NCBI RefSeq assembly: GCF_001890925.1
Contig: NZ_MLCB01000091.1
Span: 1 to 64,000, forward strand
DNA from: Planktotalea frisia
GTDB taxonomy: Bacteria; Pseudomonadota; Alphaproteobacteria; Rhodobacterales; Rhodobacteraceae
Length of the DNA: 64,000 nucleotides
Direction: 5' to 3'
Numbering within the stretch: position 1 is the stretch's first letter; each line of letters opens with the position of its first letter. The position numbers and the translations under genes were made by a program. This document shows positions 1,335-17,691 of this stretch, one piece after another. The notes under the pieces are model-generated. The model saw nothing but the letters and a program-made list of their open reading frames with translations, was not told the DNA's origin and did not search any database.

Positions 1335-1603
1335 CTAATTTTTCCGCCTCAATTTCAGCATTATCAAGAAAGCTATCAGTCTATTGGCTACCTGAACAAG
1401 CCCCACCACACACCGACCAGAGGCCCACAGGGAGCCTTGTACAGCGTTATTGGCGCTCGTGCGCTCAAGTGCAATGCAAACACGACCTGCCCCTGTATGG
1501 CCCCAATACGGCCCTGCCCGTCCATCGGATGAGCTTGGCCTTGTGGTGTCCGACTTACTCAGCAATACTGAACAATACTATTGCTTGAGAATAGGTGAAC
1601 AGC

Positions 1604-2104
1604 ATGGCAATTTGTGCAACTTGCGGTACGGAAGTCAGGGCATGGGAAACCATTGGGGGCGCTTGTGACGCATGCTTCCAAAGGCAAAAACGACAAACCG
1701 ATTTTGATCAAAGAAAGATCAAGGACCTCGAAGAACATGAACGGCCAGCCAAAATTGAAGCCATCATGCTCACCACTGAAACAGCCCCCAACCTTAACAT
1801 CACCAAGCGCATTGAGATCGTCACCGCTGAGTGCGCCTTCGGCATGAACATCTTCAAAGACTTGTTCGCTGGCGTGAGAGACATCGTTGGTGGTCGTTCT
1901 GAGGCCGTTCAGAAGACGATGCGTGATAGCCGCAGGACTGCCCTCTACGAGCTAAAACGAGAGGCATATGAGGTCGGGGCTAACGCTGTTGTGGGTGTTG
2001 ACTTGGACTACGTTGAGTTGTCGTCAGCAGGGTCTATGGTGATGCTGGTGGCGAGTGGTACGGCTGTTGTTATTGAGGAGACTGATGATGCTTCACAGAC
2101 TTAA
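1604..2104 (+). CDS. Zinc-ribbon plus YbjQ/UPF0145-type heavy-metal-binding domain protein
   Basis: A 166-residue protein. The N-terminus has a CATC...CDAC zinc-ribbon (residues 4-24), and the C-terminal half ([32 protein letters not shown], then [14 protein letters not shown]) matches the pentamer-forming YbjQ/DUF74 fold, a family whose function is poorly known. The ATG at 1604 is chosen over GTG at 1595 because AGGTGA lies 5 nt before it. The gene overlaps the start of the next one, so the two are probably translated as a unit. Confidence 0.7.
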
Positions 2105-3018: not shown

Positions 3019-4023
3019 TCAATACCTCTGCTTACTTGGAATAACCCCACGCACCCCACCTCTGGGGTCAACGACATCACCATCACGTCTTGGGATCAAG
3101 TGTACGTGTACATGGAATACAGTCTGACCTGCTGAAGCACCTGCATTGATACCAACATTAAATCCTGTGACTGTCTTATCTTGATCTAGGATAAGCTGTC
3201 GTTGCTCATGAAGCATTGCCTCAATGGCATTACGTTCAGGCTGATGTAGGTCGAAGTAGTCAGCTACGTGACGCTTTGGGATGACTAGCGTATGATGCTC
3301 TGTGACTGGAAAAGCGTCCCTGATGGCAAAGCAAAGTTCATTCTCAGCAATGATACGCCCAGCGCCTAGCTCACAGAAGATACACCCTGCTTCACGGTTA
3401 CTGTAGCTGTCTACAACACCCCGAAAGTCCGTATCGTCAGTATCCCGCTTATTCGTATTACAGGTCATGCAGAGAGCTTGGAAGTTGCTGATGTCGTCAG
3501 GGCCACCTTTTGACCTTGGGATAATATGATCGACATGGAGTGCCACCTGATCCTCATGTCCTCCGCATAACTCACAACGATGTTTTGCACGCTTGAGGAC
3601 GTTGTAACGGATGCTGCCTGACACATAGCCGCTGTCTGGCCCTCTGTGACCCCATATAGCCTCACCACGCTTGCTTATGTATGTTGCGATAGCTTCATCA
3701 CACATGGCCTGTAGGGCGGCTCTCTGGGCGTCTGTGTGGGTCGCTTCAGTAAGGCGATAACCTGTAATCTGACGACCGTCTTTGATTGGCTCAACGACAC
3801 CATTGTTAGATAGAACTTTGCCAACCATAGCCTTGGTCCGCAGTGTGTAATATTCCATTTGAGATTGGTCGTAAGCCAATAGGCTAGTGGCAATTTCTTC
3901 TGTCGTAGCTTCCCCACCACTTTGCAGAAGGGTTTTAATCATCACGGGCTGATAGATGTGCGACATCCGCATCTTCTTGGAGATGAAGTGATATAGGTCG
4001 ATTGTATTGTCGTTACTGGTCAT
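3019..4023 (-). CDS. HNH endonuclease - HIT domain fusion protein
   Basis: A 334-residue protein with three parts. Residues 1-120 are a helical, winged-helix-like region of unknown role. Residues 146-192 are an HNH nuclease with paired CxxC zinc ligands (C150/C153 and C185/C188), the HVDH core (163-166) and Asn180. Residues 212-315 are a HIT nucleotide-hydrolase or transferase domain with a CIFC zinc pair (C214/C217) and the HVHVH triad (304-308). The HNH motif points to DNA or RNA cleavage, HIT to a nucleotide-phosphate bond. One chain with both suggests a defence or nucleic-acid-processing effector, but this is inference. It ends about 40 bp from the convergent secreted gene. Confidence 0.8.
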   Translation of the reverse strand: MTSNDNTIDLYHFISKKMRMSHIYQPVMIKTLLQSGGEATTEEIATSLLAYDQSQMEYYTLRTKAMVGKVLSNNGVVEPIKDGRQITGYRLTEATHTDAQRAALQAMCDEAIATYISKRGEAIWGHRGPDSGYVSGSIRYNVLKRAKHRCELCGGHEDQVALHVDHIIPRSKGGPDDISNFQALCMTCNTNKRDTDDTDFRGVVDSYSNREAGCIFCELGAGRIIAENELCFAIRDAFPVTEHHTLVIPKRHVADYFDLHQPERNAIEAMLHEQRQLILDQDKTVTGFNVGINAGASAGQTVFHVHVHLIPRRDGDVVDPRGGVRGVIPSKQRY

Positions 4024-4144: not shown

Positions 4145-5698
4145 CTACTTATACTCTGGCAGTGCTAGCCACTTAGTGAACTTAGCCTTTCTGTCATTGT
4201 ACTGTTTGGTAGGTTCAATACGTATTGGTGTATGGAATGATACCACTACAGCCTCTTCATACCCTTTAAGGTTACCAGACACCCTTCCGTTCTGGCTATT
4301 ACGATCATTCTTGATGTCGTGGTTGATGGTGTAATTGGTAACCTGATGTGTTGCTTGGTCTAGGATGCGACGTAGTTCTGGTTCCTTGTCGTATTGAATG
4401 ATGAAGCTGTCATGTATGCAGAGAACTGGGATGTTCTTATTCGTAAAGTGTTCCAACACCATGTTGGCAATCTGACTGTCGATATTCATCAGCCTTAGGG
4501 CTTGTCCTGTATTCAGAACTCCTTTGAACTGTGGTTGTTTGTCGATGAAAGCATCTAGCAGTGCTGCAAGTTGAATATCCGTAAGGCTTTGGCCCAACTT
4601 GTCCTTACGATCACTGTTGCGGAAGGCTTGGTAGGCTTTCTTGTCGCTGTCAGCATTGATGCCCATCAGGACTAAGAGCTTTACGTATGCCCTCTGCTGT
4701 TCTGTTGTCGTTACAACATCAGGAAGTATCAATTCCCCAAGATCGTACGGATCATCAGCCAGTCTGACACCTAGTTCATTTGACAACAGGTTTGGATGGA
4801 AGGCTTTGAAGTCCACTTCCAATGTTGGTTGGTCGTTGAGGTAGATTTTGGATCGATCTTCTTTGTCGATCTGTTGCCACCAACCACGGTAGAAACGACC
4901 TCCTCTTTCCCACTTGCCAGCTAGGCCACCATTGAAAACACGGATCACGAACTTGTTGTCAGGTCCAAGCGATATGGTCTGCTGACGACCAGCATTACGT
5001 CCCTTGTTTATCGTACGCTTGAATGTCGCTGACGTGTAGCTTGGGATGTCGATGAAGGTGTGATTGAGGAGCTTGTTGTAAGCCGTCAATTGCCCTCTTA
5101 GCGTATCCAGCAAGGCAAGCTCATCGTCGGGCAGGTCTTTGTCGTTATACTCAATCTTTCGGACTGTATCATCATTGGGGTCATCCACATACTTGTCGTG
5201 AAGGATGATGCACTCTTCATTGGCGTGAGTGTCGATGTCATGCAGGTCAATGGTTAGCTGAGAGAATAGGTCCCTCAGGGCTTCGGTATGCCTGATCCGT
5301 GTCGTGTAGTTTCGAGTTCGGGGGTCTTGGTTTTGGAATGGCTTTAGTTCCTCAATGTAACCCGCCTCAACCAATAGCCTTTCCAAATCTACAACTTTGC
5401 GTGGAACAAAGAGGCCATTATAACGGCTCCCAACCGTGTATGCTTCTCTACCTTTACTGAACCCGATGCTGATGGACGGGTCTTTGAGCCACTTCACGTA
5501 GAGATCAAGTATCAGGACCCTGAGGCTTTCTTTGACGGTCCGTTTGGCCTTGCGATTGCCTTTGGGTTCTAAGGTGGTCATTCCTGCCAGATCATACAGA
5601 TCATCGCATAATGTCTTTATCTCAGGATGATCTGACCATGTGTGAACATCTAATGGCTCTGAGTTCCATCGGTCCATTTTGGTAAGGTCATCAGCCAT
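4145..5698 (-). CDS. Divergent family-A-like polymerase (palm domain) protein
   Basis: A 517-residue protein. A polymerase-like motif A (LEVDFKAFHPNLLS, Asp296) follows a GRFYRGWWQ block (268-275). A Lys-containing helix (YVKLLVLMGINA, 338-349) sits where motif B would be, and motif C is IHDSF (His429-Asp430). The spacing and the two Asp residues resemble DNA polymerase I and T7-type RNA polymerase palms. No exonuclease domain is evident. ATG at 5698 has AGGAG about 7 nt upstream. A small acidic protein gene precedes it in the same direction. Whether it makes DNA or RNA cannot be told from sequence. Confidence 0.6.
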   Translation of the reverse strand: MADDLTKMDRWNSEPLDVHTWSDHPEIKTLCDDLYDLAGMTTLEPKGNRKAKRTVKESLRVLILDLYVKWLKDPSISIGFSKGREAYTVGSRYNGLFVPRKVVDLERLLVEAGYIEELKPFQNQDPRTRNYTTRIRHTEALRDLFSQLTIDLHDIDTHANEECIILHDKYVDDPNDDTVRKIEYNDKDLPDDELALLDTLRGQLTAYNKLLNHTFIDIPSYTSATFKRTINKGRNAGRQQTISLGPDNKFVIRVFNGGLAGKWERGGRFYRGWWQQIDKEDRSKIYLNDQPTLEVDFKAFHPNLLSNELGVRLADDPYDLGELILPDVVTTTEQQRAYVKLLVLMGINADSDKKAYQAFRNSDRKDKLGQSLTDIQLAALLDAFIDKQPQFKGVLNTGQALRLMNIDSQIANMVLEHFTNKNIPVLCIHDSFIIQYDKEPELRRILDQATHQVTNYTINHDIKNDRNSQNGRVSGNLKGYEEAVVVSFHTPIRIEPTKQYNDRKAKFTKWLALPEYK

Positions 5699-6219: not shown

Positions 6220-6258
6220 GTGTGAAGTTAGATAATGCTAGTTGGATGCCCGTCACAG
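6220..6258 (-). repeat. 39-bp dyad R1, inverted copy of the site at 8094-8132
   Basis: It is organised as 8+8+7+8+8: GTGTGAAG, an 8-mer, TGCTAGT, an 8-mer, then CGTCACAG. It matches the reverse complement of 8094-8132 at 35 of 39 positions. With its partner it encloses a serine recombinase gene, which suits a crossover site or a terminal repeat of a small mobile unit. Confidence 0.6.
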
Positions 6259-6645: not shown

Positions 6646-7004
6646 CAGACCTATTCCTTGATGATGTTGTAAAGGAGGTAGTGCGATGGCTTTGATGGTC
6701 GAGGATGAGAGGTCGCCATATTGCCTTGTCTCCCATTGAATGATTACAACTATTATTCTGTTTCGGTGATCCAGAAGCCAAACGTCAGCGTATTTATGAT
6801 ATCCCCTGCAGTTGTCGTTAAGGCAGCGCATCTGGCCCTGCGCTTTTCCCAGCGTGGGGTCTTTTTTTCATGAGGCTTTCATACTGACGTCCTTTTTTAG
6901 AAGGCTAATTTCCACTACAGGGCATATTCCCTCGGTGGTGATCACGGCTCACATTCCCCCGTAGGTCGCCTTTCAGGCTCTTGTAGCCCTAACTCAGCGA
7001 CATC

Positions 7005-7043
7005 GTGTGAAGGCGGGATAACTAGCTGTCCGACGTTCAGAGA
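7005..7043 (+). repeat. Partial third copy (R2) of the 39-bp dyad
   Basis: GTGTGAAG (7005-7012) and ACTAGCT (7021-7027) match the left arm and core of the 8094-8132 site at identical spacing; the right half is diverged. It is the only recognisable structure in the first half of the gene-free 6646-7200 stretch, about 160 bp upstream of the recombinase start. Confidence 0.45.
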
Positions 7044-7200: not shown

Positions 7201-7743
7201 ATGTCAAAGTACGGCTACGCCCGCTGTTCATCTCTTTCACAGTCTACCGACATTCAGGAAGCTGCACTAAAAGCTGCTGGTTGTAAGGTTGTACGGTCAG
7301 AGAAGAAGTCTGGTAGTACTACCGAAGGCCGCACAGAGTTATCTAACATGATAGGGTTCATGCGAGAGGGTGATGTCCTATGTGTGCATAAGCTGGACAG
7401 GTTGGGCCGTAACACCAGAGACGTTCTTAACCTTGTACACGAACTTGATGAACGTGGTTGTTCGCTACAGGTACTAGAACCTGCCATTGATACAGGTGGG
7501 CCTATGGGCAAGGTGATGCTGACTGTCCTTGGTATGGTGTCTGAGATGGAACTAGGCTTCATCAAGGAACGCCAACGTGCTGGTATTGAGAAGGCTAAGG
7601 CTGAGGGCAAGTACAAGGGTCGCCCTACTTCGTTAGACCACGACAAGATTAAGGCTATGTCGGCTGAAGGTATGGGCGCTACTGCTATTGCAAGGGAACT
7701 TGGGTGTACCCGTGGCGCTATCTACAAGGTGCTAAAGGCGTAA
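7201..7743 (+). CDS. Small serine recombinase (resolvase/invertase family)
   Basis: A 180-residue protein of standard length for Hin/Tn3-type recombinases. The N-terminus YGYARCSSLSQSTDIQ carries the catalytic Ser in place of the usual YARVST, LDRLGR (residues 62-67) is the conserved arginine block, and the long E-helix ends near 130. A C-terminal helix-turn-helix follows (MGATAIARELGCTRGAIYKVL). It sits between two inverted 39-bp dyads (6220-6258 and 8094-8132) and directly before a hairpin array, so it may invert or excise this segment or act as resolvase for the element. Confidence 0.9.
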   Translation: MSKYGYARCSSLSQSTDIQEAALKAAGCKVVRSEKKSGSTTEGRTELSNMIGFMREGDVLCVHKLDRLGRNTRDVLNLVHELDERGCSLQVLEPAIDTGGPMGKVMLTVLGMVSEMELGFIKERQRAGIEKAKAEGKYKGRPTSLDHDKIKAMSAEGMGATAIARELGCTRGAIYKVLKA

Positions 7744-7748
7744 GAACT

Positions 7749-7926
7749 TCACGACGTCGTGAGATTTGAAACTACTCGACGTCGAGACATTTGAAACCTT
7801 TCGTCGTCGGGAGGTTCTTTGTGAAAGTAACCGAAGTCGGTACCTTTGGTGGGTGAAACCTTGCGACGTCGCAAAGTTCTTTGTGTACTTGCGCAGGGAC
7901 ACTTTGAAGTGTCCCGTCGTCGGGAC
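7749..7926. repeat. Array of about seven short hairpins with a GACGTCG-type core
   Basis: Right after the recombinase lie perfect palindromes TCACGACGTCGTGA (7749-7762), CTCGACGTCGAG (7775-7786) and TTGCGACGTCGCAA (7861-7874). Near-perfect hairpins lie at about 7797-7814 and 7829-7841. GGGACACTT/AAGTGTCCC (7896-7915) overlaps GTCCCG-TCGT-CGGGAC (7911-7926). Core starts are spaced about 25-32 bp apart. Stem sequences differ from unit to unit but stay self-complementary, while linkers resemble each other (ATTTGAAAC, TTCTTTGTG). This is compensatory variation, as expected for a structure that matters as RNA or single-stranded DNA. Confidence 0.65.
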
Positions 7927-8093: not shown

Positions 8094-8132
8094 GTGTGAA
8101 GGCCATCCAACTAGCTTTATCTAACTTCACAC
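8094..8132 (+). repeat. 39-bp dyad R3
   Basis: GTGTGAAG, GCCATCCA, ACTAGCT, TTATCTAA, CTTCACAC: the outer 8-mers are perfect inverted repeats around the core. It overlaps the last codons of the topoisomerase-like gene and is inverted relative to 6220-6258. The segment between this site and the hairpin array (7927-8093) shows no other feature. Confidence 0.6.
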
Positions 8133-10478
8133 CAATGTTCTTCCCGCTACTTCTCGAACCGCTTGGTCCCACGATTGACTTGGGTCTTCTTTGAGAATTG
8201 CCTCAACATCAGCCATCAAGTTCTCTGGCATTTCCTGTAAGGTCAACTCGTCTCGTATTTGTGCCTCTACTTTTTCAAGGTGTGCCGACAGTAGCTGTTC
8301 TTTCCAAGCGCCCTCCAAGTGATGTTGGTCAGGCAAGACTTTGGTTGCATGTTCCTTAAAGGCACCTTCAATAAGGTCAAGTATCTCCCCCGTTGTCATA
8401 GCGTTAATCTCAACACGACGTTTTTCGTACACAAGGAACCTTGCCCCTTCTTGTTCCACGTCGTTCTCACGCACGAGAAACCGAAACTTGGCTTCAATGG
8501 CGTCGTCTATTTCCTCATCGGTTTTGTTCGGGGGCTTGGGGAATTTTACTGGTTCGGAAAGTCCATTCTCATGCAGTGCTTTGGCTTGGTCCCATGTGAC
8601 ACATATAGGAATGGTTTGAATGTCATTCTTAAACACGTAGCGGAGTTCATTATCCTTCGTCAGTGTCGTCTTGATGGAAGTCCCTGAGATGTCGAAGTCA
8701 GTCATGGTAAAGACTTTGAAGTCAGGATTGCGAGTGACCATTTCATCCAGTAGCACTCGTAGCGCCACGACACTGTTTCCTTTGGTCGACGCTAAGGCAA
8801 TGTCGTAACGTCCCAGAAGCCCACTTTCTTCTATTGCTTCGTTGAAGCCTTCTTTCTCGACAAAGAGAACACCTGAAAATCGTCTCTCAGGTGCAGCATT
8901 GGTATATCTGAATGAGGATAACTTCGACATTGGCTTTAGGGCGACATGATTGGTGAGGCGGTCAATTTCGACTGTCCCAAGGCCAACTGATTGCCCTGTA
9001 TGAGGCTGAATTACAGAACCTCGTTTATCGTATGCGACTTTCCAGTTTGCTGTCAGTTCTGGGTTAGCTTGTAAAAATTGGGGCAAAAGGTCTTGTGTGA
9101 AATAGCTATCTTGGAATGAAGTTTTTCCCGTTATTTCTAATAATCTAGGTCGTGCAGCATACATTAACTGACGAGCGTTAGCCCAATACTGCCCATTGCT
9201 AGAAACCTTGTTATAAGCATCCTCCATGCACATCTCAGCGGCATCTATCAGTGTAAAATCAGCCTTTTTCTTTTTCGGACCTGCGGCTCCAGCTTTTTTC
9301 ATTGTAGAATGAAGGGCCTCTTTGATGGCGCTTGAGTAAGCCCCGTCCAAGAGATTTGGCTCCTTACCTGATGAGATTATCGGGATATAGGGCGACGACA
9401 CAGATAATATAACTCTATAGCTGTGAGAGCGATTTATCTGCTTATTGTGTGTGCTGTAGTAACCTCCAGAAATAACTTTCAAACGGCCTGAGTTCACCTC
9501 TAAAGAGGCTTGGCGGAGGGTATAGGTTCTGTTTGTTATGACATGGATTGTGTGGTCGCCTGCATCTCTGTCGCAAGGTGTGGCTCTGGCCCATGCTTCG
9601 ATAATGAATGGCAGTCTGGCATCGCCATCTTTATAGATGCCCTCAATCTTTTTGTAGAACCCTTCCTTTTTGTAGAACCCTTCAAAAATGTCTTCTCCTA
9701 AAGGATTGACCTTTGACTTGCCTTCTTTGGTTCGCAAAATGCCTACCAAATCGGCTATAGGTATCTCCTGAACGCTAACTGAAAGGTCATCGATACCGAC
9801 CTCGCCTTTGACGTTGAATTCCCTAATGAACTCTCCCAGTGACACATCTGGTAGAGATTGGACGAGGACGTTGATGTCTTCCGACTTGAACCAAGTTGCT
9901 AACGGCTTGCCTGTGATGACAGTCGCTTCCTGCGTCATCACTGCAACATTCAGGAACGACAGGTAGCGGCTTTTCCTAAACATTTTTTCGTCAGGAAAGC
10001 CAAGTACGATACGAGTTCCCGCATCGGCAACGTCTGTGTCTTGAGGCGTCATGACAGTATCACCATTGTCTAGCAGCTTGATGTGATACTGTTTGGATCT
10101 GGAGGTGATGGTAAGGTCAATGTTGCATAGACGACAGCCAGCCAGTGCAACACGGATGCCATTTCCCAAAGCACCACGTTGTCCCCTACGCCAGTGCTTG
10201 GAAGAACGGAGTGGGCGTTTGATGTCGAATAACCTGCCAATATCTGCGCCCGATAAGCCATTACCACCATTCCAGATGGAAACTGTTTTTTCGTCTTCAT
10301 TTACGTCATACCCAAAGCCCCCAATGTCGGCAGCATTGTCGGCAAACTCTTTAACGACCATCTTATCAAAATCACTAGGTGGGCAACCTGCTTTCTCCGC
10401 AAGACCATCAGAGGTAAGAAACCTGAGCCAATCTTGCTGTTCGATCGTCATAGCTTGGTCTGAATTTTCCTCAACCAT
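8127..10478 (-). CDS. Topoisomerase VIII-like protein: fused GHKL ATPase, 5Y-CAP-like and TOPRIM domains
   Basis: A 783-residue protein carrying both halves of a type IIB topoisomerase. The GHKL ATPase has Glu44 and Asn48 of the N-box (KEFADNAAD), a G1 box WNGGNG (69-74, with Asn where Asp is usual) and a G2 box RGQRGALGNG (98-107). A possible switch lysine is in SGKEPNL (near 372). ANARQLMY (433-440) resembles the catalytic-tyrosine motif of Spo11/Topo VI A, making Tyr440 the candidate nucleophile. The TOPRIM has the Glu of FVEKEGF (about 541-543) and TDFDISG (Asp594/Asp596). Topo VIII is the known family in which Topo VI A and B are one chain, found on bacterial plasmids and integrated elements. 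ATP-dependent double-strand passage or cleavage is therefore expected. Confidence 0.75.
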   Translation of the reverse strand: MVEENSDQAMTIEQQDWLRFLTSDGLAEKAGCPPSDFDKMVVKEFADNAADIGGFGYDVNEDEKTVSIWNGGNGLSGADIGRLFDIKRPLRSSKHWRRGQRGALGNGIRVALAGCRLCNIDLTITSRSKQYHIKLLDNGDTVMTPQDTDVADAGTRIVLGFPDEKMFRKSRYLSFLNVAVMTQEATVITGKPLATWFKSEDINVLVQSLPDVSLGEFIREFNVKGEVGIDDLSVSVQEIPIADLVGILRTKEGKSKVNPLGEDIFEGFYKKEGFYKKIEGIYKDGDARLPFIIEAWARATPCDRDAGDHTIHVITNRTYTLRQASLEVNSGRLKVISGGYYSTHNKQINRSHSYRVILSVSSPYIPIISSGKEPNLLDGAYSSAIKEALHSTMKKAGAAGPKKKKADFTLIDAAEMCMEDAYNKVSSNGQYWANARQLMYAARPRLLEITGKTSFQDSYFTQDLLPQFLQANPELTANWKVAYDKRGSVIQPHTGQSVGLGTVEIDRLTNHVALKPMSKLSSFRYTNAAPERRFSGVLFVEKEGFNEAIEESGLLGRYDIALASTKGNSVVALRVLLDEMVTRNPDFKVFTMTDFDISGTSIKTTLTKDNELRYVFKNDIQTIPICVTWDQAKALHENGLSEPVKFPKPPNKTDEEIDDAIEAKFRFLVRENDVEQEGARFLVYEKRRVEINAMTTGEILDLIEGAFKEHATKVLPDQHHLEGAWKEQLLSAHLEKVEAQIRDELTLQEMPENLMADVEAILKEDPSQSWDQAVREVAGRTLV

Positions 10479-11254: not shown

Positions 11255-11535
11255 CGCAGCACGGCCCCCCCGCAGATGTAATTCAGATCGCCTCAGCTAC
11301 TAATGCCTACGTCCACGTCCTCACCTGTCTCAGCGGGACTCCCCAAAGGCTCTACGGCCACCCTGAGGGGAGCAATCAGTTACGTTCAAGTAGGCTGGCC
11401 TAGGTCAGCATCGACATTGGACTCAACGGGGGCTTCTCGGAGACGACAGAGGTCTTGCGATCACTTGATCTTCCCGTGCTGTTTGACGATGATCATGAGA
11501 CTTTTTCGAACCACACTATTCCAGAGGCCAATACC

Positions 11536-12456
11536 ATGACACGCATTACATTCGCACTTGCCACCGTATTGTCGTTGGCCTTCACACCTTTAGCTGCACA
11601 GGACTTTCAGAAGGGCTTAGCAGCTGCTGATGCTGGTGATTATGCTACGGCAATCCAAGAGTGGACGCCTTTAGCTGAGCAAGGGTATGCTAATGTTCAA
11701 TTCAATCTTGGTATCATGTACGCTAATGGCCAAGGCGTACCTCAAGACTACGCTGAGGCTGTGAAGTGGTACCGATTAGCTGCTGACCAAGGACTTGCTG
11801 ATGCGCAATACAATCTTGGTGTCATGTACGATAATGGCCAAGGCGTACCTCAAGACTACAAAGAAGCTGCTAAGTGGTATCGACTAGCTGCTGAGCAAGG
11901 GTATGCTAATGCGCAATACAATCTTGGGAATAGGTACAGCGAAGGCCAAGGCGTACCACAAGACTACGCTGAGGCTGTGAAGTGGTATCGACTAGCTGCT
12001 GACCAAGGACGTGCTAAGGCGCAATACAATCTTGGGAGTATGTACTACAGTGGCCAAGGCGTACCACAAGACTACGCAGAAGCTGTGAAGTGGTACCGAC
12101 TAGCTGCTGACCAAGGACGTGCTGAAGCTCAAAACAATCTTGGTACCATGTACGGTAAGGGCCAAGGCGTACTCCAAGATAACTCAGAAGCTGCTAAGTG
12201 GTATCGACTAGCTGCTGAGCAAGGGTATGCTTATGCGCAATACAATCTTGGTATCATGTACGGTAAGGGCCAAGTCGTACTCCAAGATAACGTAATGGCT
12301 CACATGTGGTACAACATTGCGTCTGCTAATGGTCACGACAAAGCTGGGGAGGTGCGAGATGTACTTGCAGGTCTTATGACCGCAGCAGCAATAGAGAAAG
12401 CCCAAGCTATGGCCCGTGTGTGCATGAGCAGTGGTTACAAGAACTGTGGCTACTGA
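11536..12456 (+). CDS. Secreted Sel1-repeat protein
   Basis: A 306-residue protein. Residues 1-20 are a signal peptide (ending LAAQ), followed by six clear 36-residue Sel1/TPR-like repeats (pattern AxAQYNLGxMYxxGQGVPQD with EAxKWYRLAAxQG) and a Cys-containing tail. The fifth and sixth repeats are more degenerate (VLQD). Sel1 repeats mediate protein-protein contacts, often in the periplasm. ATG at 11536 is chosen for the signal peptide and the AGAGG upstream. The DNA of repeats is nearly identical, so copy number may vary by slippage. Confidence 0.9.
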   Translation: MTRITFALATVLSLAFTPLAAQDFQKGLAAADAGDYATAIQEWTPLAEQGYANVQFNLGIMYANGQGVPQDYAEAVKWYRLAADQGLADAQYNLGVMYDNGQGVPQDYKEAAKWYRLAAEQGYANAQYNLGNRYSEGQGVPQDYAEAVKWYRLAADQGRAKAQYNLGSMYYSGQGVPQDYAEAVKWYRLAADQGRAEAQNNLGTMYGKGQGVLQDNSEAAKWYRLAAEQGYAYAQYNLGIMYGKGQVVLQDNVMAHMWYNIASANGHDKAGEVRDVLAGLMTAAAIEKAQAMARVCMSSGYKNCGY

Positions 12457-12471
12457 GTTCCTGAGAACGCC

Positions 12472-12549
12472 ATGACAATCAAAAAAGTATTTATTACAGT
12501 GATCACCTTGGCCCTACTGGCGAAGGTTTACGTCATACTGACGTCCTGA
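12472..12549 (+). CDS. Possible 25-residue single-pass membrane peptide
   Basis: ATG at 12472 opens a 25-codon frame (MTIKKVFITVITLALLAKVY, then VILTS): basic N-terminus and one hydrophobic helix. It fits exactly between the Sel1 gene and the zinc-ribbon gene, 10 bp before the latter's start. No Shine-Dalgarno is obvious, so it may be a chance frame. Confidence 0.35.
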   Translation: MTIKKVFITVITLALLAKVYVILTS

Positions 12550-12559
12550 GGTTGCCCCG

Positions 12560-12757
12560 ATGAACACAAAGCTATCGGCTGTATCTGACAAACGCATGGA
12601 CCTCACGTGCAGTGCCTGTGGTCATAAGTTCAGCTACAAAATTGCTGATCTGACCCTAACGACCAGTGATGATACAACCACCCATGAGGTCCGCCAGAGA
12701 GCCGTATGCAGAGGCTGCGGCGGAGATGGCGAGGAAAACACGTATCAAGCTGTGTAG
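12560..12757 (+). CDS. Small zinc-ribbon protein
   Basis: A 65-residue protein with two CxxC pairs (CSAC at 17-20 and CRGC at 50-53), consistent with a single zinc ribbon. ATG at 12560 has GAGG 8 nt upstream. No further domain. It follows the Sel1 gene and the possible membrane peptide on the same strand. A role cannot be assigned. Confidence 0.6.
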   Translation: MNTKLSAVSDKRMDLTCSACGHKFSYKIADLTLTTSDDTTTHEVRQRAVCRGCGGDGEENTYQAV

Positions 12758-14164: not shown

Positions 14165-15709
14165 TCAGGTACGGAAGTCACCCCAGTCCTCACACGCAAG
14201 AGCAGCAAGCTGGTTCTCCAGCATATTCTTAGCAGGGTAAGCCGAACCATAAGCCTGAGCTACAGCACTGCTCTGTTTGGTTTTATGCGCAATCAGGTAG
14301 TCTCGTTCAGCTATCGGTACCCTCGCTGCATCCAGCCTGTCTTGCCACGTATGTCGTGCGCTATGAGCCGTTACACCATCCCTAATAATCCCAGCTACCT
14401 TCCGAACCTTGTTGGCCTCACCAGACGCCCTGTCACGACCCGACTTAATATTAGCAAACTCAGGGAAGACAGGATCGTTGGGGTTATCAGACATATCATA
14501 ACTTCTGAGAGCCTCTAGAAGAGGTCCCACCAACGGTATGTTTGCTTGAATACCATCCTTATCCAGTCGTCTAATACTGTTATGGCGAAGGTACATCGTT
14601 GGAATATTTTCCGTCAGATTAACATCTCGTACCTCTAGTCCGTAAGCGTCGCTGATCCTGCACCCCGTGTACAACAAGAAGAGTAGTAAAAGCCTGACGT
14701 GTGCCTCAGCATCGTTTGCTGCTGCCTCATACTTGCGAAACTCCTCTGGGTTTAAAGGCCACTTCTTCTTCGCGAGTTGCTCCTCACGCTTCTTGTTTCT
14801 CAGTTTGTAGAAAGGGTTCCGCATGAGGTGGTTGTCGATGTACAACCCCTGCCCTTTTTCAATGATGTGAGAGAACACGGCACTGGGGTAACGTAGGTTA
14901 GTATCTCCTGTGCCTGAGTTGGGATGCTGCTCCCTTAAATACCTTCTGAAGCCGATAGCCTCTTCTACGGTGATACTCGTAACCTCCCGCTGAAAGCCCT
15001 TAGTGGTTCTTCCACCCTCAATGAACGATGCAAACTGCGCCAATACACGCTTGGTGTTCGTGGTTTGTGACTGAATGGTACGAGGGTTTCCACCAATCTT
15101 AGCCTCAGCATAAGCCTCAAGGTATGAGTTCATTGCATCCATCAAAGTTGGATTAACAGTCGTTGCAACACGACCAGCAACAACAGCTTCTGTAACACCT
15201 GCAACTGTCATCTTGTTTTGAGCTTTATAAGGCGTCTGATAATTGGACTGACCCCACTTACCGCTTCGGTAATCCTTTTGGCGCTGGTCTTCGTCGATCA
15301 ATTCATCAGCAGCCAATTCATAGTAGAGGTCTTTGCGCTCAAAATACTCACGTTCAGCCTCCTTAAACTCAGCGTATCCTTCAACAGTATGCCCAGCCTT
15401 TAAGACGGGAGCCTGATCGGGGTGAATACCCCAAGAGCGAACCCTATTGTCAGCAATGTTACGAATATCTTGAGGAGCTAAATCACTGCCGCCTTCCAGC
15501 AACTTTGTCAGCTTCATCTTGGTGGTATTAAAATCTGCAAGAACCTGAGAACATCTCGTAAGTGCTGTCGCCTCATCCTTGGTTTCAAGCGCAACCTTTA
15601 CCTCACGCTTACCCCAAAGAGTTCGTAGGCTCTCAGGCACCTGCTTACGAAAGGAATAGAATCCAGTCGAAGACCGTTTCATGCCGTTCTTTTGTCTGAC
15701 CTGCCGCAT
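14165..15709 (-). CDS. Tyrosine recombinase (phage-type integrase)
   Basis: About 514 residues from the ATG at 15709; the ATG at 15682 is also possible, and the frame runs back to TTG at 15772. The N-terminus (STGFYSFRKQVPESLRTLWG) is the DUF6538-type arm domain, then a core-binding domain and a catalytic domain with TGCRISDAYGL (Arg), HSARHTW (His-x-x-Arg) and a terminal Tyr in the AYGSAYPAKN region. It sits 90 bp inside the right candidate attachment repeat, as integrases of islands usually do, and probably moves the 15-kb element. Confidence 0.9.
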   Translation of the reverse strand: MRQVRQKNGMKRSSTGFYSFRKQVPESLRTLWGKREVKVALETKDEATALTRCSQVLADFNTTKMKLTKLLEGGSDLAPQDIRNIADNRVRSWGIHPDQAPVLKAGHTVEGYAEFKEAEREYFERKDLYYELAADELIDEDQRQKDYRSGKWGQSNYQTPYKAQNKMTVAGVTEAVVAGRVATTVNPTLMDAMNSYLEAYAEAKIGGNPRTIQSQTTNTKRVLAQFASFIEGGRTTKGFQREVTSITVEEAIGFRRYLREQHPNSGTGDTNLRYPSAVFSHIIEKGQGLYIDNHLMRNPFYKLRNKKREEQLAKKKWPLNPEEFRKYEAAANDAEAHVRLLLLFLLYTGCRISDAYGLEVRDVNLTENIPTMYLRHNSIRRLDKDGIQANIPLVGPLLEALRSYDMSDNPNDPVFPEFANIKSGRDRASGEANKVRKVAGIIRDGVTAHSARHTWQDRLDAARVPIAERDYLIAHKTKQSSAVAQAYGSAYPAKNMLENQLAALACEDWGDFRT

Positions 15710-15712
15710 ATC

Positions 15713-15744
15713 TTGTACCAACTTAGTACCATTAGTTAGTACCA
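15713..15744. promoter_or_regulatory. Three GTACCA repeats just upstream of the integrase start
   Basis: TTAGTACCA occurs exactly at 15723-15731 and 15736-15744, with a related TTGTACCA at 15713-15720. They lie within 35 bp upstream of the ATG at 15709. Such direct repeats suit an excisionase or integrase arm-type site or an operator. Confidence 0.4.
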
Positions 15745-15798
15745 AATACAGATAAGATGCCTGAAAAGTCAATAATTTATAGGTTTCTGGTGATTAAG

Positions 15799-15814
15799 TG
15801 GTGCCCCCACACGG
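15799..15814 (-). other. Candidate right attachment site (attR-like)
   Basis: An exact copy of 663-678 (TGGTGCCCCCACACGG). It is the left arm of a larger inverted repeat, TGGTGCC (15799-15805) with GGCACCA (15832-15838), and contains a CCCC-ACAC-GGGG hairpin. The gene-free stretch 15815-16356 beyond it contains direct repeats of GGTCTACG and GC-rich inverted words but no gene I can support. Confidence 0.5.
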
Positions 15815-16356
15815 GGATGGCTCCGCCAGTAGGCACCAAGGCCAAGCATTAACCTCATAAAACAAGGCTACTGTCTCATTCTGGTTCCTGCAACAGGCGT
15901 AAATTGGTCTACGGTTTGGTCTACGATCCAAGCTTAGGGCTACTGAACCTGAACGGTGCATGTAGGGGTTCCTGTGGCCTTAGTCGCCAGAGACTCTCAG
16001 TGAGTCATACAGGGCGATACTGGTTTATGCGCTAGGTTGCTGGCGGATGAATCTAATGGGCCTGTACGGGCCTTACAGAGTCTCTCAGAGGCATTCAGCG
16101 TGAGGGGGCGAGTGCCACCCCACCCCCACGGGGTATCGTATACAGTCCTGACCCAAGATTGGCTGTGAGGAACTGTAAACCTAGCTGAATGCAGGGCGTT
16201 TAGGCCTAGCTTGACTGTTTCATGAGATCAGAGGGGAGATCGGCTCAGTGTATCAATAGCGCCAACGGTTTAAACTGGGTGGAAGGCAGGGATGTTGGGC
16301 TATGTAAAACCGTTCCCTATATAGGCGAAGCCGAAGGGCGAGCCGCACCTCTAGCC

Positions 16357-17691
16357 GAGAGTGTCCGACCTTCTGTGTATGAGTAATATGGCCCATGCTT
16401 CACCAACGAAGGAGCATGACTGCAATGACAATTTCCAAGGAACTACTGGACGAGCTGCTCAGCGGCGTTGAACGACCTGAGGATTTACTCGGCGACAAAG
16501 GCCTGATGAAGGAACTGAAGGTCCGGCTGATGGAACGGATGTTGGGCGCGGAACTGACCGAGCATCTGGGCTATGAGCCACATGGTGAGCCTGCCAGCCA
16601 GCAGGCCAACCGGCGTAATGGGGCGACGCGCAAAGTGCTGAAGGGCAACGACGGTGCGGTGCCGATTGACATCCCACGAGACCGGGAAGGCAGTTTCGAA
16701 CCTGAGCTGATCCAGAAGGGCCAAACCCGGATCGACGGGATGGATGACAAGATCATCGGGCTTTATGCTGCAGGTTTGTCGACCCGCGATATCCGCGCCC
16801 ACCTTGAAGAGGTTTATGGCCTGAAGGTTTCCGCCGACCTGGTCAGTCGCGTCACCGATGCGGTTCTGGAGGAGGTTTCAGATTGGCAAAACCGTGCCTT
16901 GGAACCAGTTTATCCTATCGTTTTTCTCGACGCTCTCAGGGTCAAAATCCGCGACGCTGAAAGTCGCCAGGTTAAAAACAAGGCCGTCTACGTGGCCTTG
17001 GGGGTCACCGCGGAGGGTGAACGCGAGGTTCTGGGCCTGTGGATCGCGGCCAACGAGGGGGCCAAATTCTGGCTGTCGATCATGAACAACCTGCGCAATC
17101 GGGGCGTCGAAGACATCCTGATCGCCGTCGTCGATGGCCTTAAGGGCTTCCCTGACGCCATCAACGCAGCCTTCCCCGATACGACTGTGCAAACCTGCAT
17201 CGTGCACCTTGTGCGCCACTCCCTGAACTTCTGCGGCTGGAAAGACCGCAAGGCCGTGGCCAAAGACCTGCGTCGGGTTTATCAGGCGGTGGACGACGAG
17301 GAAGCCGCCAAAGCCTTGGATGATTTCGAAGCTGAATGGGGTACAAAATACCCCTCAATCGCGCCAAGCTGGCGGCGCGCATGGCAGGAGGTCATCCCGT
17401 TCTTTGCCTTCCCGCCCGCGGTGCGCAAAATCATCTACACCACCAACGCCATAGAAAGTCTGAACCGGGTGATCCGGAAAACCACGAAAACACGTGGCAG
17501 CTTTCCAACAGATGATGCCGCAACCAAGCTGATCTATTTGGCAATCCGAAAATTCGAGAACACCGGACGGTGTGTCAGGGAATGGGTTGCTGCCCGAAAC
17601 CAGTTCGCTATTCTCTACCCTGAACGGTTCAACCGATGACCTGTTTCAACCGCATGGGCTAAGCCTCATACACAGAGTTTCGGATACTCCC
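16357..17691 (+). mobile_element. IS256-family insertion sequence
   Basis: Terminal inverted repeats of 27 bp (16357-16383 and 17665-17691) match at 22 positions and share TCTGTGTATGAG at the inner end. The single transposase gene fills the element. The flanks show no obvious 8-9 bp target duplication. It lies at the junction between the A+T-richer left element and the metal-response region. Confidence 0.85.
16425..17639 (+). CDS. IS256-family (mutator type) transposase
   Basis: About 404 residues from ATG 16425 (GAAGGAG about 10 nt upstream; MTISKELLDELLSG is the usual family N-terminus). Central DDE catalytic core: Asp in VFLDALRVKIRD, Asp in AVVDGLKGFPDA with the CIVHLVRHS block, and Glu in TTNAIESLNRVIRK. 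Length is normal and no frameshift is seen, so it is likely active. Confidence 0.95.
   Translation: MTISKELLDELLSGVERPEDLLGDKGLMKELKVRLMERMLGAELTEHLGYEPHGEPASQQANRRNGATRKVLKGNDGAVPIDIPRDREGSFEPELIQKGQTRIDGMDDKIIGLYAAGLSTRDIRAHLEEVYGLKVSADLVSRVTDAVLEEVSDWQNRALEPVYPIVFLDALRVKIRDAESRQVKNKAVYVALGVTAEGEREVLGLWIAANEGAKFWLSIMNNLRNRGVEDILIAVVDGLKGFPDAINAAFPDTTVQTCIVHLVRHSLNFCGWKDRKAVAKDLRRVYQAVDDEEAAKALDDFEAEWGTKYPSIAPSWRRAWQEVIPFFAFPPAVRKIIYTTNAIESLNRVIRKTTKTRGSFPTDDAATKLIYLAIRKFENTGRCVREWVAARNQFAILYPERFNR

Follow-up and report, generated by a model that had tools for sequence, protein, structure and literature searches.

A divergent topoisomerase VIII with an altered ATP-pocket residue on a tRNA-Thr-integrated element of Planktotalea frisia

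Topoisomerase VIII (topo VIII) joins a B-like ATPase half and an A-like cleavage half, in this order, in one chain, and is described as carried on plasmids or integrated elements (PMC8185306, PMC7614492), the P. polymyxa (Paenibacillus polymyxa) enzyme being a plasmid-borne example. Most members are homodimers according to the review that treats them (PMC8185306). The activities reported are weak: the Microscilla marina enzyme is described as relaxing DNA independently of ATP and the Ammonifex degensii enzyme as showing ATP-independent cleavage only, and the review states that many topo VIIIs are seemingly in variable states of inactivation (PMC7614492). In topo VI (A2B2) the two halves are separate subunits, and its cleavage is reported to be triggered by ATP binding (PMC5922973). 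Mini-A is likewise topo VI-A-like and located on mobile elements (PMC8185306, PMC7614492), where it is described as a truncated Top6A homologue (PMC7614492). The Wadjet nuclease MksG/JetD has a TOPRIM of the topo VI-A type, and its description gives it no tyrosine candidate in the CAP-like domain and no ATP-binding domain (PMC10123090). Roseobacteraceae and Paracoccaceae are named in a list in one article's section on topo VI in bacteria (PMC11302465). Our literature search retrieved no paper joining "type IIB topoisomerase" with "integrative element".

We have analysed a window of 64,000 nucleotides from Planktotalea frisia, in which an earlier note, made from the sequence alone, had recognised a single 783-residue chain resembling topo VIII at 8127-10478. 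Coordinates and length were right, and the strand, which the note did not give, is minus: an open frame of 783 codons without internal stop runs there, and the plus strand over the same stretch has many stops. One copy of the gene was found in the genome. All positions given for its parts are on the minus strand. The B half (residues 3-405; 9264-10472), recognised by fold and profile match, consists of a GHKL ATPase, a transducer and, where topo VI-B has its H2TH, a stretch that the alignments show to be short. Its N-box (EFADNAAD, residues 44-51; 10326-10349) reads K43-E44...D47-N48, its G1 box N70-G-G72-N-G74, and its G2 box (RGALGN, residues 101-106; 10161-10178) R101-G102-A-L-G105-N106. 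The transducer carries Lys372 (9363-9365), invariant in 97 of 97 alignment rows, which we take to be the ATP-sensing lysine. The A half (residues 407-710; 8349-9260), assigned by fold match, comprises 5Y-CAP and TOPRIM. The motif RQLMYAARP (residues 436-444; 9147-9173) holds the presumed catalytic Tyr440 (9159-9161), and the TOPRIM core (residues 537-606; 8661-8870), defined by PF21180 and alignments, presents as acidic residues Glu541 (8856-8858) with Glu543, and Asp594 (8697-8699) with Asp596 (8691-8693). The chain thus differs from Mini-A, as described, in having a full B half.

A tblastn search of the window protein against 72,556 plasmid records matched seven of them, four of which cover 80% or more of the query at a single place. 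These four, on two Pseudomonas megaplasmids and two P. polymyxa plasmids, align over 98-99% of the length at 26.9%, 26.0%, 24.5% and 24.5% identity (E 3e-42 to 6e-39); the P. polymyxa M1 protein aligns at residues 9-778 (24.5%, E 6e-39) and shares the same invariant residues; the window protein differs from it in having Asn70 for Asp and in belonging to an element that also encodes a polymerase-like protein. In Synechococcus elongatus and Methylobacterium fujisawaense, the copies cross the record start and are full-length once the two ends are joined. N-box, G2 glycines, Tyr440, Glu541 and Asp594/596 are common to all seven proteins of the resulting alignment (A1). With the window protein as single query, no close relatives were found in genome contigs, in viral contigs or, at E 1e-5, in the phage collection; relatives in contigs emerged only with the alignment as query. 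A1 detected 67 loci in genome contigs (the weakest, L075, with just 48 residues matched) and a further 20 in viral contigs, spread over many bacterial phyla and some archaea. Near-whole profile coverage was reached by 64 open frames, the window's own included, and at other loci the B and A halves are encoded separately, in two frames side by side. The two nearest relatives, in genomes G675 and G463, are 36% and 37% identical to the window protein.

A second profile (A2), built from 53 fused members, was used to count residues over the loci, each count covering the sequences that it aligned at that position, window included and a few of them near-identical. E44 and N48 are present in 96/96, and the cleavage residues Tyr440, E541, D594 and D596 in 93/93 each. 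Since these positions are conserved across the family, the motifs do not occur by chance, and N-box, G2, Tyr440, Glu541-543 and Asp594/Asp596 all lie at the residues where they had first been read. Against PDB sequences, A2 matched topo VI-B (2q2e_B, E 5e-28) and topo VI-A (1d3y_A, E 2.2e-14). On the window protein itself, Pfam PF21180 scored E 0.0018, below its cut-off, and no ATPase model matched at E up to 0.1; 51 of the 53 members match HATPase_c. The earlier reading had been made to depend on a profile match to the topo VI-A 5Y-CAP region. By sequence this failed, with TP6A_N absent from the matches of the window protein and of its whole genome and the A-half profile aligning to topo VI-A from the TOPRIM onward only, whereas by predicted fold it held, with Tyr440 invariant.

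The AlphaFold model of the window protein has a mean pLDDT of 85.8 and a pTM of 0.54, a modest value, so that the relative placing of the two halves is unreliable. Residues 3-405 superpose on topo VI-B (9o0g_D; Z 22.6, rmsd 5.6, 382 aligned) and residues 407-710 on residues 72-364 of topo VI-A (1d3y_A; Z 14.2, rmsd 4.5, 253 aligned). The halves therefore share the folds of the two topo VI subunits, at an aligned identity of 17-18% (B) and 15% (A), but are joined in one chain. Topo VI pairs its tyrosine with the TOPRIM of the partner subunit, for which reason the distance from Tyr440 to the TOPRIM, named as a criterion in the earlier note, would not be decisive when taken within a single chain. 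Full-length plasmid homologues, profile matches and the fold matches of both halves together show that the window protein is of the single-chain topoisomerase VIII type, a divergent member of a known, rare family. A class scan in which "270 of 385 genomes" appeared to carry topo VIII was not accepted as such: of the listed matches, those of G000 and G107 alone extend past the ATPase region, and the others, confined to profile positions below about 170, are probably MutL/Hsp90-type proteins. In the family tree the end branch of the window protein is long (1.76), and its pairing with a Mesorhizobium copy (L011) was not relied on, the program flagging two long branches meeting. At another locus (L069, 8950-10101) a topo VIII copy has profile positions 3-218 joined to 603-761, and the tyrosine region is missing.

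The suggestion that the gene belongs to an integrated element was borne out by direct repeats of a tRNA-Thr end and an integrase. The left repeat, which holds the 3' end of tRNA-Thr(TGT) and bounds the element, lies at 658-678 and the right one at 15794-15814 (both plus strand); these 21-bp repeats match at 19/21 positions (90%), and their distance gives an element of 15.1 kb. A tyrosine integrase (DUF6538 and Phage_integrase by Pfam; 14165-15772, minus strand) has its gene start 21 bp inside the right repeat. The 15-bp core of the repeat falls in the last 16 bases of tRNA-Thr(TGT), of which an intact gene is found on contig C146. Neither repeat of the window sits inside a whole tRNA gene, and the window begins at a contig end. 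A 150-bp segment (15789-15938) that includes the right repeat has a copy of 98.7% identity towards the end of C146, and this contig carries another integrase beside the intact tRNA-Thr, indicating that more than one element has used such a site. The stretch concerned (G000, C146 29671-33183, L118-L120) also has the tRNA end in inverted orientation, close to where the contig stops. In G463, topo VIII is enclosed by 27-bp repeats (25/27) that are 14.2 kb apart, one being the 3' end of a tRNA-Ser, with an integrase present; in the G675 stretch no tRNA was found. A tRNA-Ile candidate at 4312-4397 of the window was rejected, as it lies inside the polymerase-like frame and Rfam gave no match in the window at the gathering threshold.

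The element also encodes a YbjQ-like protein (1595-2104, plus strand) and, as defence-like cargo, an HNH-HIT fusion protein (3019-4023, minus strand); the former has a relative next to topo VIII in G463, the latter in G675. A small serine recombinase of the resolvase/invertase type (7201-7743, plus strand) and a DCC1-like gene are flanked by 38-bp inverted repeats (6220-6257 and 8095-8132; 92% complementary), of which a half copy stands at 7003-7027 and which may be transposon ends or recombinase sites. No 5-bp target duplication was seen by eye around this cassette, and no transposase was recognised in it. The right inverted repeat provides the last codon and the stop of the topo VIII gene. 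Inversion between the two repeats might have switched the C-terminus, but this idea was abandoned: both repeats read GTGTGA at their outer end, and the same Val-stop would result. Right after the recombinase gene, at 7742-7925, four short repeats with GACGTC-type palindromes are found, perhaps res sites of the recombinase. A Sel1-repeat gene with 108-bp repeat units lies at 11566-12405, and a Mutator-family (IS256-like) transposase gene with 25-bp inverted repeats (16359-17689) adjoins the element.

A further gene of the element, linked to topo VIII in three genomes, encodes a compact, 517-residue protein resembling family-A polymerases (4145-5698, minus strand), in which we assume EVDF to be motif A and HDS motif C. 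Its product was matched to phrog_4756, a group of unknown function (E 1.6e-45), and relatives occur in 180 phage records; the viral contigs, scanned with this protein alone, yielded none. A model built from six sequences is of low confidence (pLDDT 57.0 overall), residues 281-460 being better with block means of 61-88, and in fold it comes closest to family-A DNA polymerases (Foldseek E 4.1e-5) and to mitochondrial RNA polymerase (Z 11.6). A PDB sequence search with the family returned no polymerase. Among 394 genomes of the same bacterial family, 52 have a match to the polymerase-like gene (E up to 1e-8), which in some is partial, and three have topo VIII (E up to 1e-6). All three topo VIII genomes carry the polymerase-like gene within 8 kb, at gaps of 2.4 kb in the window, 62 bp in G675 (same strand) and 7.1 kb in G463; the chance of this co-occurrence is p = 0.0022, a value resting on three genomes. 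The search profile (A4) had been built from the genes of these same three genomes, and a profile made from ten sequences outside these genomes recovers all three as well (E 6e-190, 3e-166 and 8e-10).

The loci examined for this gene were that of the window, L127, L128 and L159-L171. In 13 further stretches around polymerase-like genes, an integrase-like frame was present in eight and a tRNA gene in nine, which suggests that these genes mark a family of small tRNA-linked elements. In G774, where the gene is 80% identical to that of the window, an integrase-like frame abuts an intact tRNA-Thr(TGT). Given these surroundings and the 52 genomes against three, topo VIII appears to be carried now and then by a type of element that is itself commoner and has its own polymerase-like gene. 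The pairing was not supported as a rule outside the bacterial family: of 96 loci examined, a single one (L052, Pirellulaceae) has a weak polymerase-like relative (11358-12746, E 8e-8), some 1.2 kb away from a split topo VIII. In G463, four adjacent genes next to topo VIII (L128, 5391-10663) encode a ZorB-like/GmrSD_C protein and weakly ZorA-like proteins, possibly a Zorya-like defence cargo.

What sets the window protein apart within its family is residue 70. As the earlier note had pointed out, the G1 box has Asn in place of Asp; the codon is AAT (10269-10271), and over 96 aligned loci the position is Asp in 94, Glu in one (L092) and Asn in the window alone, which means Asp in 94 of the 95 other loci. 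Both nearest relatives keep Asp, and the profile alignment puts this column on the Asp of the topo VI-B motif V-x-DNG-x-GI. The canonical GHKL (Bergerat) site is thus present in its N-box Glu/Asn and G2 glycines and lacks the G1 Asp. Asn70 was observed in one genome only, and the AAT may be a base-calling error. The equivalent G1 residue of Hsp82, a protein of the same ATPase fold, is presumably Asp79. The yeast Hsp82 mutant D79N is reported as nucleotide-binding-defective (PMC10148809). Combined with the ATP-triggered cleavage of topo VI, the change from Asp to Asn predicts that the enzyme either can no longer be triggered or has become independent of ATP.

If Asn70 still bound ATP, the change would be neutral and the protein an ordinary ATP-dependent topo VIII. 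The remaining ATP-site residues (E44, D47, N48, G102, G105, N106 and K372) are all intact, and special decay of the ATPase half is not supported, since the B/A identity ratio of 0.85 falls inside the 0.70-0.93 spanned by the 53 members. We nevertheless consider a neutral change unlikely in view of the near-universal Asp, its retention in both nearest relatives and the binding defect reported for the Hsp90 substitution. Asn70, the long end branch and the deviations at conserved columns could instead be signs of a protein that is decaying. Of 27 B-half columns conserved at 90% or more, the window protein deviates at five, the second-highest number among the 53 members, and it does so at six of 37 conserved A-half columns (A-half counts are listed for 15 members). 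Visibly broken copies exist elsewhere in the family, such as L069 without its tyrosine region, and the review statement on inactivation cited above points in the same direction. On the other hand, the 783-codon frame is intact with every cleavage residue kept, and the element's integrase and polymerase-like genes likewise have unbroken frames; an inactive remnant therefore also seems rather improbable to us.

A different role, as a DNA-cutting effector for defence or exclusion of competitors in the manner of JetD/MksG and not a topoisomerase, would fit the Zorya-like genes adjoining the G463 copy, the HNH-HIT neighbour and the weak resemblance to JetD that the TOPRIM shows in both nearest relatives (E 0.0036 and 0.0014), as well as DUF2399, which is named in PADLOC's JetD model description and is matched by 24 of the 53 members. 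The window protein, however, matched no PADLOC family at E up to 1, no SMC-type partner was recognised in the 10 of 14 element ORFs scanned against Pfam, and the full ATPase-transducer half and the CAP tyrosine are both features that MksG, as described (PMC10123090), does not have. We regard such an effector as very unlikely. The boldest proposal is that the Asn70 protein is a type IIB topoisomerase naturally without ATP gating, its gate opening without nucleotide or with another one, and that it acts as an ATP-independent relaxase or a Spo11/JetD-like cutter serving a tRNA-integrated element with its own compact family-A-like polymerase; in this full form we hold it to be distinctly doubtful.

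The reading that we favour, and judge reasonably probable, is that the protein is the topo VIII of a 15.1-kb, tRNA-Thr-integrated, plasmid-like element, a type IIB topoisomerase that acts for the circular DNA of this element and depends on ATP weakly or not at all. Two copies would form a homodimer, in which Tyr440, helped by the metal-binding TOPRIM, would attack DNA and create a double-strand gate for the passage of a second duplex. By this mechanism, the enzyme might relax or unlink the circular or replicating DNA of the element upon excision or replication. Because the adenine-contacting Asp of the ATPase site is replaced by Asn, gating by ATP may be weak or lost, and the enzyme would be slow or ATP-free, as has been reported for some other topo VIIIs.

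This topo VIII is unusual in two respects: it has changed a normally fixed residue of the ATP pocket, and a polymerase-like gene accompanies it and its two closest relatives. These features recommend it as a test case without making the system one of a new kind. The elements are small (15.1 and 14.2 kb) and have recognisable ends, so the contribution of topo VIII to its carriers can be tested, and since the polymerase-like gene also occurs in 49 genomes of the same bacterial family in which no topo VIII was found, this can be done by comparing elements. The topo VIII assays summarised in the literature differ between enzymes on the need for ATP (PMC7614492), and the Asn70 protein and its Asp70 relatives together offer a natural comparison for finding out if topo VIII requires ATP at all.
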